Shown: in pieces, positions 19,094 to 37,392 of the stretch | Layout of the letters: each line of letters begins with the position of its first letter | Numbering within the stretch: the first letter of the stretch is position 1 | Translations under genes and position numbers: made by a program | Notes under the pieces: model-generated | Told to the model about the DNA's origin: nothing | Database searches by the model: none | Seen by the model: the letters and a program-made list of their open reading frames with translations, nothing else | Source: Nonlabens sp. Ci31 | GTDB lineage: Bacteria > Bacteroidota > Bacteroidia > Flavobacteriales > Flavobacteriaceae | Length of the DNA stretch: 64,000 bases | Assembly (NCBI RefSeq): GCF_012974865.1 | Contig: NZ_CP043633.1 | Coordinates: 2,408,501 to 2,472,500 of the forward strand | Reading direction: 5' to 3'

Positions 19094-19592
19094 ATGAGCC
19101 GAAAGTATAAATTTGCAGATAAATTTGGTGCATACTTTATAAGCTTTGCTACTGTGAACTGGATAGATGTATTTACTAGAGACGCTTACTTTTGGTGTAT
19201 GGAGAATCGTTAGATTTTTGCAGAAAAAATAAAGGCATGGAGCTTTATGGTTATTGTATCATGCCAAGCCACGTTCATTTAATTTTTCGGTCAGCATTAA
19301 ACGATCCATCAGGATTAATAAGAGATTTTAAAGGGTTTACTTCAAAGAAAATAGTTAAAATCATTGATGATAATCCACACGAAAGCCGAAAAGAATGGAT
19401 GCTCTGGATGTTTGAACGTGCTGGCAAAAAAAATAGCAATGTTGCCAATAAACAGTTTTGGCAGCAGAATAATAAACCAATAGAGATTTGGTCATTAAAC
19501 GTATTTGAGCAGAAACTAAAATACATACACAACAATCCTGTTGTATCAGGCTTTGTGACCAATCCAATAGATTGGAAATTTAGCAGTGCAAG
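19094..19592 (+). pseudogene. REP-associated tyrosine transposase (RAYT), copy 1, frameshifted and 3'-truncated
   Basis: Begins MSRKYKFADK at ATG 19094. It carries the Y1 transposase hallmarks: the HUH motif MPSHVHLIF and the C-terminal KYIHNNPVVSGFV. Compared with copy 2, one base is lost near 19200, which shifts the frame (the downstream part is open from 19192). After about 19592 the match to copy 2 stops abruptly and another gene tail begins, so the last about 15 codons were replaced. It catalyses single-strand transposition of REP palindromes in related systems; this copy is surely inactive. Confidence 0.88.
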
Positions 19593-20818: not shown

Positions 20819-21352
20819 ATGAGCCGAAAGTATAAATTTGCAGACAAATCTGGTGCGTACTTTATAAGCTTTGCTACTGTGAACTGGATAGATGTATTTA
20901 CTAGAGACGCTTACTTTTGGTGTATTGTAGCATCGTTAGATTTTTGCAGAAAAAATAAAGGCATGGAGCTTTATGGTTATTGTATCATGCCAAGCCACGT
21001 TCATTTAATTTTTCGGTCAGCATAAAACGATCCATCAGGATTAATAAGAGATTTTAAAGGGTTTACTTCAAAGAAAATAGTTAAAATCATTGATGATAAT
21101 CCACACGAAAGCCGAAAAGAATGGATGCTCTAGATGTTTGAACGTGCGGGCAAAAAAAATAGCAATGTTGCCAATAAACAGTTTTGGCAGCAGGATAATA
21201 AACCAATAGAGATTTGGTCATTAAACGTATTTGAGCAGAAACTAAAATACATACACAACAATCCTGTTGTATCAGGCTTTGTGACCAACCCAATAGATTG
21301 GAAATTTAGCAGTGCAAGAAATTATGGTAATGATGACCATACCATTTTGTAA
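20819..21352 (+). pseudogene. REP-associated tyrosine transposase (RAYT), copy 2, two nonsense codons
   Basis: Full-length 178-codon frame (ATG 20819 to TAA 21352) with the RAYT start MSRKYKFADK, HUH motif PSHVHLIF, and YIHNNPVVSGFV. Two point changes relative to copy 1 make stops: TTA to TAA at 21023-21025 and TGG to TAG near 21131-21133. There is no frameshift. Apart from these it is almost identical to copy 1, so the duplication is recent. REP palindromes flank it on both sides, in opposite orientation. Confidence 0.9.
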
Positions 21353-31293: not shown

Positions 31294-31545
31294 TTATTGA
31301 TTTTCAAAATTTGGAGTTGTAATAATCCCTGTAAGATACTTTTTATTTTTGTTCATAGAGTTCCTAATATTCTTTCTTAATAAATGACATGAATTTTGGC
31401 TTATAAATATTTCATGATTACCGTCATCTTTGTCCAAAAGTAAAAAACTCCCTTCTTTTTTCATTAGGGCTCTATATTTCACAGCTGCTTGATATGGATG
31501 ATCAAAGTCATAAAGTTTCCCTGATTCTTTGCCCACCTTTCCCAT
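31294..31545 (-). CDS. Possible small hypothetical protein reaching into the repeat array
   Basis: 83-aa frame whose first codons lie in the first array unit and whose body (KLYDFDHPYQAAVKYRALMKKEGSFLLLDKDDG) is unique sequence and plausibly protein-like. No family recognised and no clear ribosome binding site. It abuts the acyl-CoA gene downstream. Perhaps a real small gene whose 5' end was overwritten by the repeat. Confidence 0.3.
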   Translation of the reverse strand: MGKVGKESGKLYDFDHPYQAAVKYRALMKKEGSFLLLDKDDGNHEIFISQNSCHLLRKNIRNSMNKNKKYLTGIITTPNFENQ

Positions 31546-32996
31546 CCCAGAAATTTGTCTTCACAAATTATCAAGGAATAAGTAAAGGAGCTTTTTTTAA
31601 GTTCGAGGTTTAAAAGCTCCTCGCCTAAGGATAGGCGAGGACAGATTGGCCTCGCAGCGCATGCTGTGATGCAATCAGGAGTGGTTGCTGCGGTATTTAA
31701 ATATGGAGATAAAATTGAAATTTGAATAAAATTACAGCATCGCATTAACCTTTCCGACCAAAACTCGCTTTGCCCACCTTTCCTATAATTAGGAAAGGAG
31801 CTTTTTAAATCGGGATTTCGCAGAAATCTCGGAGTGGTTGCTGCGGTATTTAAATATGGAGATAAAATTGAAATTTGCACAAAATTTTAATACCGTATCA
31901 ACCTTTCCGACCAAAACTCGCTACCGCTCGCTTTGCCCACCTTTCCTATAATTAGGAAAGGAGCTTTTTAAATCGGGATTTCGCAGAAATCTCGGAGTGG
32001 TTGCTGCGGTATTTATCTTCGTGTATCAAGCTAGTTTTGTTCTCATTTCCAACACCTTACTCCACCTTTCCTATAATTAGTAAAGGAGCTTTTTTTAAGT
32101 TCGAGGTTTAAAAGCTCCTCGCCTAAGGATAGGCGAGGACAGATTGGCCTCGCAGCGCATGCTGTGATGCAATCAGGAGTGGTTGCTGCGGTATTTAAAT
32201 ATGGAGATAAAATTGAAATTTGCACAAAATTCTAATACCGTATCAACCTTTCCGACCAAATTTACGCAAGCTCCAATTTGCCCACCTTTCCTATAATTAG
32301 GAAAGGAGCTTTTTAAATCGGGATTTCGCAGAAATCTTGGAGTGGTTGATGCGGTATTTATCTTCGTGTATCAAGTTAGTTTTGTTCTCATTTCCAACAC
32401 CTTACTCCACCTTTCCTATAATTAGTAAAGGAGCTTTTTAAATTCGAGATCTAGAAGCTCCTCGCCTAAGGATAGGCGAGGACAGATTGGCCTCGCAGCG
32501 CATGCTGTGATGCAATCAGGAGTGGTTGCTGCGGTATTTAAATATGGAGATAAAATTGAAATTTGCACAAAATTCTAATACCGTATCAACCTTTCCGACC
32601 AAATTTACGCAAGCTCCAATTTGCCCACCTTTCCTATAATTAGGAAAGGAGCTTTTTTTAAGTTCGAGGTTTAAAAGCTCCTCGCCTAAGGATAGGCGAG
32701 GACAGATTGGCCTCGCAGCGCATGCTGTGATGCAATCAGGAGTGGTTGCTGCGGTATTTAAATATGGAGATAAAATTGAAATTTGCACAAAATTCTAATA
32801 CCGTATCAACCTTTCCGACCAAATTTACGCAAGCTCCAATTTGCCCACCTTTCCTATAATTAGGAAAGGAGCTTTTTAAATCGGGATTCAAAAGCTCCTC
32901 GCCTAAGAAGCCTTCATCTCGCGAGCTTTTTTGCGAGAGGAATGCATTGGACAGATTTAGCAGCTTTGCTGCAAATCAGGAGTGGTTCAGAGATAT
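31532..32996. repeat. Mosaic structured repeat array 1 (8 units)
   Basis: Eight units, recognised by the anchor CCACCTTTCCTATAATTAGG or its variants, begin at about 31532, 31773, 31936, 32061, 32281, 32406, 32624 and 32844. Spacings fall in size classes (125, 163, 218-220, 241 bp) because each unit chooses between alternative segments. Common to the units are the palindrome CCTTTCCTA taat TAGGAAAGG, a variable hairpin insert, the block GTGGTTG(C/A)TGCGGTATT, and a later partly complementary block such as AATACCGTATCAACC. No protein-coding gene is credible inside. The array ends 28 bp before the meaB stop. Confidence 0.93.
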
Positions 32997-33024
32997 TTAT
33001 ACGTAAGATAAACTTTATTAAAAA

Positions 33025-34038
33025 CTACAACCCCAACAACTCACTAGCCGCATCAAAAGGACTCTTCACTTTACCTAAAACCTCTTTTTCTAAAACAGCC
33101 AATTTTTCTATGACCTCAGGTCGGTTGTAGAAGTTGGTTTTTAGGGCATCCTCTACCGTTTGATGGAACCAGTAGAGTTCTTGTGAGTGGCGTTTTTTGG
33201 TAAAGCTTTTATTGGCTAACGCGTGTGCGGTGTAGTTTTCTATTTCTTCGATGACCTCTGTGAGACCTATGTTGTTGAGACCGCTGCAGGTGAGTACTTG
33301 AGTAGGCCAGTTGTGGTCTTTTTGAGGCATAAGGTGCACGGCGTTTTTGAATTCGCGTCGGGCATGTTTTGCGGCGAGTTGGTTATCACCATCTGCCTTG
33401 TTGATGATGATCGCGTCAGCCATTTCCATGATGCCGCGTTTAATACCTTGCAGGTCGTCGCCAGCTCCAGCGAGTTTGAGGAGTAAGAAAAAGTCGGTCA
33501 TGCTGTGGACTGCGGTTTCGCTTTGTCCTACGCCCACGGTTTCTACGATGATAAAGTCGTAGCCTGCTGCTTCACATAAGATGATCGCCTCACGTGTTTT
33601 GCGTGCCACACCGCCTAGCGTGGTTCCAGCAGGACTAGGTCGTATAAATGCTTGGTGGCTTTTCACTAGTTCTTCCATTCTGGTTTTATCGCCCAAAATG
33701 CTGCCTCTTGAGATGTTGCTCGATGGATCTATCGCGAGTACGGCCACTTTTTTGCCGCGTTCTATAAGCTGTCTTCCCAGCGATTCTATAAAGGTGGATT
33801 TTCCCACGCCTGGCACTCCAGTGATTCCTAGTCTAAAGGATTTTCCTGAATAGGGTAGGGATAGTTGTAATACCGCTTTCGCGAAAGCGGAATCGCCACC
33901 AGCAGTGCTCTCCACTAAAGTAATCGCACGACTCAATGCACTCACCTGGCCAGAATGCAACTCGCTAAAAAGTTGTTTTACATCTACAACTTCTTTCTTG
34001 CGTTTTAAGTTGGGATTGATATGAGGTTGTGTAGCCAA
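33025..34038 (-). CDS. meaB: Methylmalonyl-CoA mutase-associated GTPase MeaB (G3E family)
   Basis: 337 aa. The Walker A motif GVPGVGKST is at about residues 74-82, the DPSSNISRGSILGDKTRM switch region follows, then ETVGVGQSE and the guanine-binding NKADG. MeaB/ArgK protects methylmalonyl-CoA mutase and gates its adenosylcobalamin loading. The mutase itself is not in the window, but a PduO-type cobalamin adenosyltransferase lies 7 kb away. The gene and its small neighbour are enclosed by the two mosaic repeat arrays. An exact 16-bp palindrome is read SAFAKA near the N-terminus. Confidence 0.95.
   Translation of the reverse strand: MATQPHINPNLKRKKEVVDVKQLFSELHSGQVSALSRAITLVESTAGGDSAFAKAVLQLSLPYSGKSFRLGITGVPGVGKSTFIESLGRQLIERGKKVAVLAIDPSSNISRGSILGDKTRMEELVKSHQAFIRPSPAGTTLGGVARKTREAIILCEAAGYDFIIVETVGVGQSETAVHSMTDFFLLLKLAGAGDDLQGIKRGIMEMADAIIINKADGDNQLAAKHARREFKNAVHLMPQKDHNWPTQVLTCSGLNNIGLTEVIEEIENYTAHALANKSFTKKRHSQELYWFHQTVEDALKTNFYNRPEVIEKLAVLEKEVLGKVKSPFDAASELLGL
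33874..33889. repeat. 16-bp palindrome copy, exact (in meaB)
   Basis: CGCTTTCGCGAAAGCG, 18-bp palindrome with flanking C and G; read AFAKA. Confidence 0.85.
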
Positions 34039-34039
34039 T

Positions 34040-34459
34040 TTATGATTTTTTAGAAAATTTCAAAGCCAGTTTTCCACCTAACCACGCCATAGGAATATAC
34101 GCCAAAACGATATCTGCAACAGTAAACCAGGTAGGTCCGGGAAGTAGGTAATTCATGTAAATGCCACCCAAAAGAAAAAAACAACCTATACCAAGAGCAA
34201 ATTTCATTTTATAAGAAACAGGGATTACAGCAGCTACCAAAGCACCGATGAAGGTCCCTATTGCATGTCCTAAAAAAGGAAAAAGAAAGTAATGCGCTTC
34301 TAAAGTGGGCATGATACTGGCGTAAGCGTTCATGTCGTTGATGTCAATCCCTTCTATAGGGAACATACTATTTCCTATAGTAATCAAAATCATATTCACA
34401 GTGCTTCCTAATATCAAGCCTACAATGACAGCAATGATGTTCCTGAGTATGGGTTTCAT
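34040..34459 (-). CDS. Hypothetical four-TM membrane protein
   Basis: 139 aa with about four transmembrane segments, glycine-rich (IVGLILGSTVNMILITIG, GHAIGTFIGALVAAVI). It ends directly before meaB, so both are one transcript. No family with known function recognised. Confidence 0.75.
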   Translation of the reverse strand: MKPILRNIIAVIVGLILGSTVNMILITIGNSMFPIEGIDINDMNAYASIMPTLEAHYFLFPFLGHAIGTFIGALVAAVIPVSYKMKFALGIGCFFLLGGIYMNYLLPGPTWFTVADIVLAYIPMAWLGGKLALKFSKKS

Positions 34460-34523
34460 GAGAATAGGTTTTAAGATTTAAAAATACTATTTTTCTATAG
34501 AATCGTCGTGTTAATTACCACCA

Positions 34524-34554
34524 AACCCCAAAGGTTTACAAAATCTTTGGGGTT
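34524..34554. terminator. Hairpin at the left edge of array 2
   Basis: AACCCCAAAG ... CTTTGGGGTT, stem extended inward by GTTT/AAAT. Related in sequence to the 32-bp palindrome at 37226, which stands at the other end of array 2. Confidence 0.6.
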
Positions 34555-34582
34555 GATAATATGCTTCTATTAATTTTAGCAC

Positions 34583-37190
34583 AGCCTCCACCTTTCCGGC
34601 CAAAAGTCGCTACCGCTCATTTTGCCTACCTTTCCTATCCCAGAAATTTGTCTTAACAAATTATCAGGGACTGAGGAAAGTAGCTTTTTAAATTCGAGAT
34701 TTAGAAGCTCCTCGCCTAAGAAGCCTGCATCCGACGCGCTTTTTTGCGAGAGGAATGCATTGGACAGATCGGCTAGCTTTCTAGCGATCAGGAGTGGTTG
34801 ATGCGGTATTTAAATATGGAGATAAAATTGAAATTTGCACAAAATTCTAATACCGCCTCCACTTTTCCGGCCAAAAGTCGCTACCGCTAACTTTGACTAC
34901 CTTTCTTATAATTAGGAAAGGAGCTTTTTAAGTTCGAGATCTAAAAGCTCCTCGCCTAGGGATAGGCGAGGACAGATTGGCCTCGCAGCGCATGCTGTGA
35001 TGCAATCAGGAGTGGTTGCTGCGGTATTTAAATATGGAGATAAAATTGAAATTTGAATAAAATTACAGCATCGCATCAACCTTTCCGACCAAAACTCGCT
35101 ACCGCTCGCTTTGCCTACCTTTCTTATAATTAGGAAAGGAGCTTTTTTAAATCGGGATTTCGCAGAAATCTCGGAGTGGTTGCTGCGGTATTTAAATATG
35201 GAGATAAAATAGAAATTTGAATAAAATTACAGCATCGCATCAACCTTTCCGACCAAAGCTCGTTGCACTCTCTTTGCCCACCTTTTCCATCCCAGAAATT
35301 TGTCTTCACAAATTATCAAGGAATAAGTAAAGGAGCTTTTTTTAAGTTCGAGGTTTAAAAGCTCCTCGCCTAAGGATAGGCGAGGACAGATTGGCCTCGC
35401 AGCGCATGCTGTGATGCAATCAGGAGTGGTTGCTGCGGTATTTAAATATGGAGATAAAATTGAAATTTGAATAAAATTACAGCATCGCATTAACCTTTCC
35501 GACCAAAACTCGCTACCGCTCGCTTTGCCCACCTTTCCTATAATTAGGAAAGGAGCTTTTTAAATCGGGATTTCGCAGAAATCTCGGAGTGGTTGATGCG
35601 GTATTTATCTTCGTGTATCAAGTTAGTTTTGTTCTCATTTCCAACACCTTACTCCACCTTTCCTATCCCAGAAATTTGTCTTCACAAATTATAAGGGAAT
35701 AAGGAAAGGAGCTTTTTTTAAGTTCGAGGTTTAAAAGCTCCTCGCCTAAGGATAGGCGAGGACAGATTGGCCTCGCAGCGGATGCTGTGATGCAATCAGG
35801 AGTGGTTGCTGCGGTATTCAAATATGGAGATAAAATTGAAATTTGAATAAAATTACAGCATCGCATTAACCTTTCCGACCAAAACTCGCTACCGCTCGCT
35901 TTGCCCACCTTTCCTATAATTAGGAAAGGAGCTTTTTAAATCGGGATTTCGCAGAAATCTCGGAGTGGTTGATGCGGTATTTATCTTCGTGTATCAAGCT
36001 AGTTATGTTCTCACTTCCAACACCTTACTCCACCTTTCCTGTAATTAGGAAAGGAGCTTTTTAAGTTCGAGATTCAAAAGCTCCTCGCCTAAGGATAGGC
36101 GAGGACAGATTGGCCTCGCAGCGCATGCTGTGATGCAATCAGGAGTGGTTGCTGCGGTATTTAAATATGGAGATAAAATTGAAATTTGAATAAAATTCTA
36201 ATACCGTATCAACCTTTCCGACCAAATTTACGCAAGCTCCAATTTGCCCACCTTTCCTATAATTAGGAAAGGAGCTTTTTAAGTTCGAGATCTAAAAGCT
36301 CCTCGCCTAAGAAGCCTGCATCCGACGCGCTTTTTTGCGAGAGGAATAAAAGATATAAGGAAAGTAGCCTTTTAAGTTCGAGATCTAAAAGCTCCTCGCC
36401 TAAGGATAGGCGAGGACAGATTGGCCTCGCAGCGCATGCTGTGATGCAATCAGGAGTGGTTGCTGCGGTATTTAAATATGGAGATAAAATTGAAATTTGA
36501 ATAAAATTACAGCATCGCATCAACCTTTCCGACCAAATTTACGCAAGCTCCAATTTGCCCACCTTTCCTATAATTAGGAAAGGAGCTTTTTAAGTTCGAG
36601 ATCTAAAAGCTCCTCGCCTAAGGATAGGCGAGGACAGATTGGCCTCGCAGCGCATGCTGTGATGCAATCAGGAGTGGTTGCTGCGGTATTTAAATATGGA
36701 GATAAAATTGAAATTTGCACAAAATTCTAATACCGTATCAACCTTTCCGACCAAAGCTCGTTGCACTCGCTTTGCCCACCTTTCCTATAATTAGGAAAGG
36801 AGCTTTTTAAATCGGGATTTCGCAGAAATCTCGGAGTGGTTGCTGCGGTATTTAAATATGGAGATAAAATTGAAATTTGCACAAAATTCTAATACCGTAT
36901 CAACCTTTCCGACCAAATTTACGCAAGCTCCACTTTGCCCACCTTTCTTATAATTAGGAAAGGAGCTTTTTAAATTCGAGATTCAAAAGCTCCTCGCCTA
37001 AGGATAGGCGAGGACAGATTGGCCTCGCAGCGCATGCTGTGATGCAATCAGGAGTGGTTGCTGCGGTATTTAAATATGGAGATAAAATTGAAATTTGCAC
37101 AAAATTCTAATACCGTATCAACCTTTCCGACCAAAGCTCGTTGCACTCACTTTGCCCACCTTTCCTATAATTAGGAAAGGACCTTCTTCT
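34583..37190. repeat. Mosaic structured repeat array 2 (about 13 units)
   Basis: Anchors near 34626, 34896, 35115, 35277, 35528, 35653, 35904, 36030, 36248, 36558, 36776, 36938 and 37156. It uses the same segment alphabet as array 1, plus a long hairpin segment seen in full only in a few units (for example 34700-34790 and 36290-36350). The anchor stem has two forms: the short CTTTCCTATAATTAGGAAAG, and a form with an extra inner hairpin AATTTGT cttc ACAAATT (34640, 35290, 35665). The last anchor ends at a unique sequence before the palindrome at 37226. Confidence 0.93.
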
Positions 37191-37225: not shown

Positions 37226-37257
37226 CAACCCCAATGGTTTTAAAACCATTGGGGTTG
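37226..37257. terminator. Perfect 32-bp palindrome at the right edge of array 2
   Basis: CAACCCCAATGGTTTT followed by its exact reverse complement. Could act as a transcript end or boundary; it resembles the hairpin at 34524. Confidence 0.7.
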
Positions 37258-37315: not shown

Positions 37316-37331
37316 CGTTTTCGCGAAAGCG
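37316..37331. repeat. 16-bp palindrome copy, 1 mismatch (downstream of secA)
   Basis: CGTTTTCGCGAAAGCG, intergenic. Confidence 0.75.
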
Positions 37332-37392
37332 GAATTAAATCCATTTAAATTTCAATTTTGAAAGTAAAATTGAAAGCGGAATTGTTATCTAA

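Follow-up and report, generated by a model that had tools for sequence, protein, structure and literature searches.

Repetitive extragenic palindromic (REP) sequences, their inverted doublets (REPINs) and the REP-associated tyrosine transposases (RAYTs) form the described system closest to the one presented here. As far as the available parts of these sources go, REP modules are 20-40 bp long (PMC3733652), occur outside genes as singlets, inverted doublets and clusters or tandem arrays, accompanied by a linked gene for an enzyme, and have been reported in clusters next to that gene (PMC3116915). A comparable organization is found in Nonlabens sp. Ci31 (Flavobacteriaceae), in a stretch of 64,000 nt (contig NZ_CP043633.1, positions 2,408,501 to 2,472,500, forward strand; hereafter the window) where two arrays of hairpin-rich units bracket meaB and a small membrane-protein gene. 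We consider, with moderate confidence, that these arrays consist of tandemly repeated copies of a selfish element with inverted hairpin ends, the full form of which carries a DUF559 gene in its spacer; the role of DUF559 in this reading is one that we infer. Unlike REPs, the modules of this element measure about 56-78 nt and contain two hairpins, and the linked gene, located inside the doublet, codes for a DUF559 nuclease and not for a RAYT (Y1). By analogy, the gene-less pairs and single halves are best read as relating to the DUF559-bearing form as REPINs and REPs do to RAYT transposases.

Other systems share part of this layout. Miniature inverted-repeat transposable elements (MITEs) are gene-less elements with inverted ends that occur beside full enzyme-coding copies, and inverted ends are likewise common to the gene-less and the DUF559-coding copies described here; however, the ends are in this case complex hairpins, single halves are frequent, no general target duplication of 11 nt or more was found at the 24 boundaries analysed, and the partner gene is DUF559, not a known transposase. 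HEARO/IscB omega-RNA elements tie a nuclease gene to a structured sequence, whereas the element of Nonlabens has inverted palindromes on both sides of its gene and no strand-specific folding. In the EDxHD/Vsr-like homing endonucleases, such as I-Bth0305I, which we take to be the protein of structure 3r3p, a nuclease gene also lies within a host element of which gene-less versions exist, and 3r3p is weakly similar to the element-borne DUF559 proteins (E 0.034); here, in contrast, a bare DUF559 domain of about 123 aa is encoded within palindromic DNA instead of an intron, and no homing site was found. Finally, the Vsr-like DUF559 proteins, represented by Caulobacter VsrA and PDB entry 3hrl (E 1e-23), belong to the same family, PF04480. 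VsrA is a PD-(D/E)XK protein with a DUF559 domain that causes an SOS response in cells lacking cytosine methyltransferase, and differs from the present case in being a repair-type gene for which the accessible part of its description mentions no flanking hairpin repeats (PMC12907096). The label of PF04480 still reads "protein of unknown function", and no link of DUF559 with palindromic or inverted repeats was found in the open-licence PubMed Central literature.

Paired hairpin modules and the DUF559 gene between them

The element consists of a left (L) and a right (R) half of about 65-75 nt (measured range 56-78 nt), each with two hairpins. On the plus strand, L reads AAGCTCC-(TCGCC hairpin GGCGA)-GGACAG-(hairpin)-CAGGAGTGGTTG, and R, which follows the spacer, reads CAACCTTTCCGACC-(P5 hairpin)-GCCCACC-(TTTCC hairpin GGAAA)-GGAGCTTTTT. 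Taken in reverse, R has the layout of L (AAGCTCC-hairpin-GG...-hairpin-...GGTTG). Moreover, the L-half model has five opposite-strand matches to R halves (one each in G018, G010 and G011 and two in G002; E 4e-4 to 0.0075, these values being rough), and the element is therefore a pair of inverted, homologous modules, the inner edges of which are complementary in several copies (GGTTGATGCGG...CCGCATCAACC). Both kinds of copy, with DUF559 and without, have an L and an R half at their ends. The spacer of the gene-less copies, which are far more numerous, is mostly 48-68 nt long, with some of 80 or 89 nt and three of about 149 nt by coordinates.

At 800-802 kb of the Ci31 genome (G000), in a further array, the spacer carries in two instances an intact DUF559 gene of 123 aa, which is opposite in strand to the repeat. 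Across the 23 genomes of the genus, 51 DUF559 matches were found in 14 genomes, and ten DUF559 genes, accounting for 12 of these matches, adjoin halves by coordinates, in seven genomes (two in G000, three in G002 and one each in G005, G018, G019, G020 and G022). Nine of these ten lie between R and L, all nine with their start facing the R half, and the reading frame is broken in two of them, both from G002; beside the tenth (G002, 2152 kb) only an L half was found. The preliminary description had suggested a search for a linked transposase; the gene found in linkage encodes a DUF559 nuclease. The seven element DUF559 proteins tested all match PF04480, and their genes are under purifying selection (pN 0.17-0.39 vs pS 0.76-1.02). 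By profile, the solved structures closest to this set are 3hrl and, weakly, 3r3p, annotated as a "mobile intron protein"; DUF559 is a Vsr-like nuclease of the PD-(D/E)XK type. In a single case (L096), a DUF559 copy is followed by a partial repeat, of about 45 bp by eye, of the 3' end of the neighbouring gene. Another DUF559 gene of the Ci31 genome (L077, G000:C1:124582-124899) stands beside tandem hairpin repeats of similar layout and different sequence (AACCCCTTAT-hairpin-ATGTTCC-hairpin-GGGGAAAGCTTTT, by eye).

The halves are dispersed as single copies, inverted pairs or tandem arrays. One unit of the arrays has 54 BLAST matches in its own genome, at ten places apart from meaB, and occupied sites vary between species, both being points that the preliminary description had proposed to check. 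Besides the array at 800-802 kb, the Ci31 genome contains an array of 227-bp units (G000:C1:2494780-2497137; L031 2801-5136) with eleven R halves and a different left part. R halves occur in 17 and L halves in 15 of the 23 genomes, these figures being lower bounds, with up to 150 candidates per genome scored in the genus and 42, under stricter filters, in the family-wide search. Lone R halves are frequent, with at least 25 places among those listed, of which three or more probably represent one ancestral copy met in different genomes, while one was counted in two overlapping loci. To judge from inspection by eye and from the closest predicted frames, copies are intergenic. Six dispersed, near-alike MITE-like copies in G002 (L191-L195 and L198; ends CGTGAGTTCGATATAA...) contain an L half mid-element, which is a half captured by another mobile element. 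In G008, a distant member of the genus, arrays of halves (L204, L205) are found in a genome with no DUF559 or Y1 match.

Recurrence in other genera

A scan with a DUF559 alignment yielded 80 loci, nearly all from Bacteroidota by record title, near relatives having possibly been left out. Maribacter arenosus has an R half (AAAAAGCTCCTTCCC...GGGAAGGTGG-(hairpin)-GTCGGAAGGGT) immediately before DUF559 and an L half after it; the association also recurs in an uncultured Flavobacteriaceae, and in Gelidibacter gilvus DUF559 lies inside one unit of a tandem array with units of about 242 bp. Cross-genus R and L profiles, for which the Maribacter and Gelidibacter loci served as seeds, were then applied to the 80 loci. 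In 14 loci (12 without the two seeds), DUF559 has an R half in the conserved orientation at most 220 nt upstream, and in four it has one there on the other strand; an L half in the conserved orientation lies downstream, also in 14 loci (again 12 without the seeds). R matches also occur after DUF559, on the same strand, in 15 loci. Elsewhere in the loci, R was matched in seven and three and L in two and six, by strand.

Two further comparisons concern the flanks themselves. Inverted repeats scoring at least 40 flank 13 of 49 DUF559 frames vs four of 152 neighbouring frames (Fisher p 3e-6). The 49 frames come from 48 loci, and motif, length or flank filters removed the remaining 32 of the 80. 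When flank pairing was compared with that of mismatched pairs, 23 loci exceeded the 95% level among the 75 with long enough flanks, against a null that is inflated by repeats common to several genera.

Family-wide, the cross-genus R model has matches in 20 of 120 genomes, two of them in the genus. Among the 18 others, nine have an R half at most 200 nt from a DUF559 match (G029, G075, G081, G098, G105, G113, G118, G122 and G158), and in four of these nine it is the single R match of the whole genome; a tenth genome (G082) has one at most 500 nt away. None of the nine loci was used for model building, and three (G081, G098 and G118) are also among the 80 loci. Finally, in six Pontibacter loci (L257, L259, L272, L276, L286 and L290), a simpler palindrome of the type CCAACCACCCC...CCTCCTT-loop-AAGGAGGGGAGCTTTT stands on both sides of DUF559, in opposite facing. 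The association of DUF559 with palindromes may therefore be wider than the hairpin family of the meaB arrays.

The two arrays beside meaB

Two arrays of about 1.46 and 2.6 kb had been described around meaB and the membrane-protein gene, and are present at that place, both consisting of alternating R and L halves on the plus strand. Array 1 (31533-32987; positions here are those of the window) has a truncated R at its start and, beside meaB, a long-stem L at its end; its neighbours are the stop of meaB on one side and, on the other, a frame named by eye as acyl-CoA dehydrogenase-like. Array 2 (about 34572-37185) has the membrane-protein gene on one side and a secA-like frame, also named by eye, on the other. 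Flanked by both arrays, meaB (33025-34038, 337 aa) and the 139-aa membrane-protein gene between it and array 2 (34040-34459) lie on the minus strand; the name of the first and the membrane nature of the second are those of the preliminary description.

Parsing of the units identified 22 anchor hairpins, which delimit 20 anchor-to-anchor units within the arrays, one fewer than the approximate count of 21 given before, and the motif GGAGTGGTT occurs 20 times. One L and one R are found in 19 of the 20 units, leftover halves standing at the array ends, and the shortest unit (36278-36370) is a fragment. The units measure 93, 125 (three), 156, 163 (two), 194, 210, 217-220 (ten) and 240 bp, in agreement with the length classes proposed earlier, and their similarity (copies of 119-300 nt with 60-100% identity) is far beyond chance. 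The statement that the arrays are not CRISPR also holds, units of 93-240 bp with shared spacers being unlike identical short repeats with unique spacers. In the terms of the preliminary description, the "anchor stem" is the outer hairpin of R, the "middle inserts" are the L variants, the "arms" the spacer types and the "linkers" the P5 variants. Each unit was thought to draw one choice from each of these sets: the variants do exist, but the choices are linked and not free, because the type B spacer (four units) accompanies only a short L together with a short R lacking P5.

Eleven L halves are full, seven short and two long-stemmed. The full copies, located on the plus strand by nhmmer with the L profile, lie at 31612-31687, 32110-32185, 32454-32528, 32673-32748, 34943-35018, 35357-35432, 35733-35808, 36076-36151, 36387-36462, 36605-36680 and 36985-37060. 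The short form (GATTTCGCAGAAATCTCGGAGTGGTT, without the outer hairpin), delimited by unit parsing, was found on the plus strand at 31814-31840 and at six further places starting at 31977, 32322, 35156, 35569, 35945 and 36816. The long-stem form lies, on the same strand, at 32893-32987 beside meaB and at 34706-34800, and as a fragment at 36297-36359. The 20 R halves have the usual P5 region in 16 cases and a shorter form in four. The former (AACCTTTCCGACC-(P5 hairpin)-GCCCACC-(TTTCC hairpin GGAAA)-GGAGCTTTTT), identified on the plus strand by nhmmer and unit parsing, lie at 31747-31804, 31900-31967, 32245-32312, 32588-32655, 32808-32875, 34590-34685, 34864-34927, 35078-35145, 35242-35337, 35492-35559, 35868-35935, 36211-36278, 36522-36589, 36740-36806, 36902-36969 and 37120-37185, the ends of the copies starting at 34590 and 35242 having been lengthened by eye across a long outer hairpin. 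The short R without P5 (TTTCCAACACCTTACTCCACCTTTCC...) lies at 32046-32091, also on the plus strand, and begins at 32391, 35638 and 36014 in the other cases. Leading from L to R, the type A spacer (TTTAAATATGGAGATAAAATTGAAATTTG..., plus strand, 31696-31746 and 15 copies in all) is the site of the DUF559 gene in other copies of the element, and the type B spacer (TATCTTCGTGTATCAAG..., plus strand, 32014-32045) has four copies.

Similar hairpins stand on both sides of array 2, at 34527-34555 and 37229-37257 (CCCAAAGG.../CCCCAATGG...GGGGTTG), the second of which was scored terminator-like. A palindrome, CGCTTTCGCGAAAGCGGAAT, lies within meaB (33874-33893) and recurs with one change past array 2 (37316-37335), its core being found in several further loci of the genus. 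Two Y1-transposase-like frames (19201-19383 and 20945-21106), one with an internal stop, are located about 10 kb or more from array 1.

MeaB is matched in all 23 genomes of the genus, which allows the sites of the arrays to be compared. In G009, the closest genome by MeaB (93% identity), the site of array 1 holds one decayed element. Among four stretches of the window aligned with it, the best is the one beside meaB with the long-stem L, with a score of 48 vs shuffle maxima of 27 (200 mononucleotide shuffles) and 31 (300 dinucleotide shuffles); two others scored 31 and 41, above all their shuffles (the 31 narrowly), and a type-B stretch scored 23, not above its shuffles. Because G009 keeps a decayed single element matching the stretch on the meaB side, array 1 has probably grown from one inherited copy, a reading supported by that one alignment. 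The site on the secA side holds an R half in G003 and G006 and an L remnant in G021, and no half match in G009, while G008 has an array of its own about 1 kb upstream of meaB. Identity between units of one array reaches 100%. For three of 12 full or long units, the best match lies in the other array (one, at 34687, at just 78%), which points to exchange between the arrays or to a shared source.

Competing explanations and a possible mechanism

In the reading that we favour, DUF559 would be the mover of the element. The protein may recognise the hairpin ends, whether as such, extruded or single-stranded, and cut DNA, and repair would then copy the element into new sites. Gene-less copies would be served in trans, and arrays could grow and swap units by ordinary recombination between near-identical copies. 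We put forward more tentatively, as a possibility that falls short of even chances, that this is a new class of mobile DNA in Flavobacteriaceae, and possibly in Bacteroidota more widely, in which DUF559 recognises two-hairpin ends and copies its own gene as well as gene-less copies without a known transposase, the meaB arrays being a burst of such copying. The lack of a clear target duplication weakly favours break-and-repair copying over staggered cut-and-paste.

A number of observations weigh against DUF559 as the mover. No movement of the element was seen, and no DUF559 match is present in the window. In the genus, 39 of the 51 DUF559 matches lie away from halves, and G004 and G014 have DUF559 matches and no halves. 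The relation of copy number to the presence of DUF559 in an element is suggestive and not significant (one-sided p 0.064). Direct repeats of at least 11 nt within 400 nt, the size range that the method covers, were found at just two of 24 boundaries, so that there is no clear insertion footprint. In the 80 loci, L matches also fall off-position, downstream on the other strand in ten and upstream in eight and 13, by strand. All 21 DUF559 frames of the genus loci (some genes counted twice) had flank inverted-repeat scores below 40; since they include real elements, this measure is blunt. Finally, five half-bearing genomes (G001, G003, G008, G011 and G021) have no DUF559 match, and in eight of the 18 genomes of other genera, including the half-richest ones (G034, G121 and G140), no R half was found at 500 nt or less from DUF559.

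These last two observations also speak for the alternative that survives best, in which the hairpin element is moved or amplified by host recombination or by another enzyme, DUF559 having invaded its spacer as a passenger in the manner of a homing endonuclease, a parasite of a parasite. The abundance of gene-less over DUF559-bearing copies and the weak similarity of the element DUF559 set to the mobile intron protein 3r3p count in the same direction. Homing endonucleases are often embedded within other elements, according to the part of the source available (PMC3943268), which was likewise counted for the passenger. Nevertheless, DUF559 keeps the same position and orientation relative to R in several genera despite diverged halves, which suggests long co-evolution, and R and L matches in the 80 loci cluster at DUF559 and are fewer elsewhere. 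We regard the passenger as rather unlikely.

Less probable still, and in our view improbable, is that the units are a family of functional RNAs or bidirectional terminators kept for gene regulation. The region contains 22 terminator-like sites vs 6.7 expected, 20 of them in units and facing outward from both ends, and one unit folds with a z-score of -5 on the plus strand and -1.9 on the minus strand. Stems vary yet keep pairing: 22 R halves, drawn from within and outside the genus, share the skeleton of the outer hairpin, and P5, with 19 different stem strands, folds in most (mean z -3.4) and poorly (z about -1 or above) in six. RNAalifold on MAFFT alignments of halves gave just seven pairs per alignment because the variable hairpins do not align, and P5 was therefore folded separately. 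A strand preference was first observed, L folding better on the plus strand in 16 of 20 cases and R on the minus strand in 33 of 34. However, dinucleotide shuffles give a strand difference in fold energy equal to that of the whole set of halves, and on either strand folding is better than in shuffles by an average of about three standard deviations, a pattern that Watson-Crick palindromes in DNA should produce. In addition, 38 full elements have no strand preference (p 0.82). Structured RNA was accordingly dropped as the main explanation, and these results favour palindromic DNA over RNA with a fixed sense strand, transcripts being possible. Rfam matches at gathering score in the window comprise only rRNA and tRNA, none of them in the arrays, where weak sub-threshold matches occur. 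Moreover, the orientation of neighbouring genes at the 71 clusters framed on both sides has no clear bias (convergent 21, divergent 12, tandem 38), and the variation of occupied sites between species also argues against a regulatory family. Among the roles proposed in the preliminary description, the structured-RNA array thus finds no support, and the selfish hairpin family is the best fit, since the halves are scattered and, in several genera, show physical linkage to a nuclease gene.

A local satellite, in which slippage or unequal crossing-over would have expanded one duplicated hairpin region with no mobile element involved, is very improbable: near-identical units within an array and tandem arrays at other loci, such as that of 227-bp units, agree with it, but it accounts for array growth only and is insufficient because single and paired copies are dispersed in 17 of 23 genomes. 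An ordinary REP/REPIN moved by a Y1 (RAYT/IS200-like) transposase is hardly credible and was set aside, for although singlets, inverted doublets and clusters occur as they do in REPINs in the part of PMC3116915 available, and Y1 matches are present in 17 of the 23 genomes of the genus, the 33 Y1 loci retrieved, out of 54 matches, contain no half (E 1e-3) within flanks of up to 1.5 kb, and four genomes with halves (G001, G008, G019 and G022) have no Y1 match, on which grounds the system is REPIN-like but not a REPIN member.

The fixed association of DUF559 with palindromes in several genera would, if true, give DUF559 genes a role and explain a family of flavobacterial intergenic repeats, while adding a REPIN-like system in which a nuclease takes the place of the tyrosine transposase. 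The spread of palindromic repeats without a known transposase becomes testable and, should DUF559-driven copying be shown, the element would merit a class of its own.

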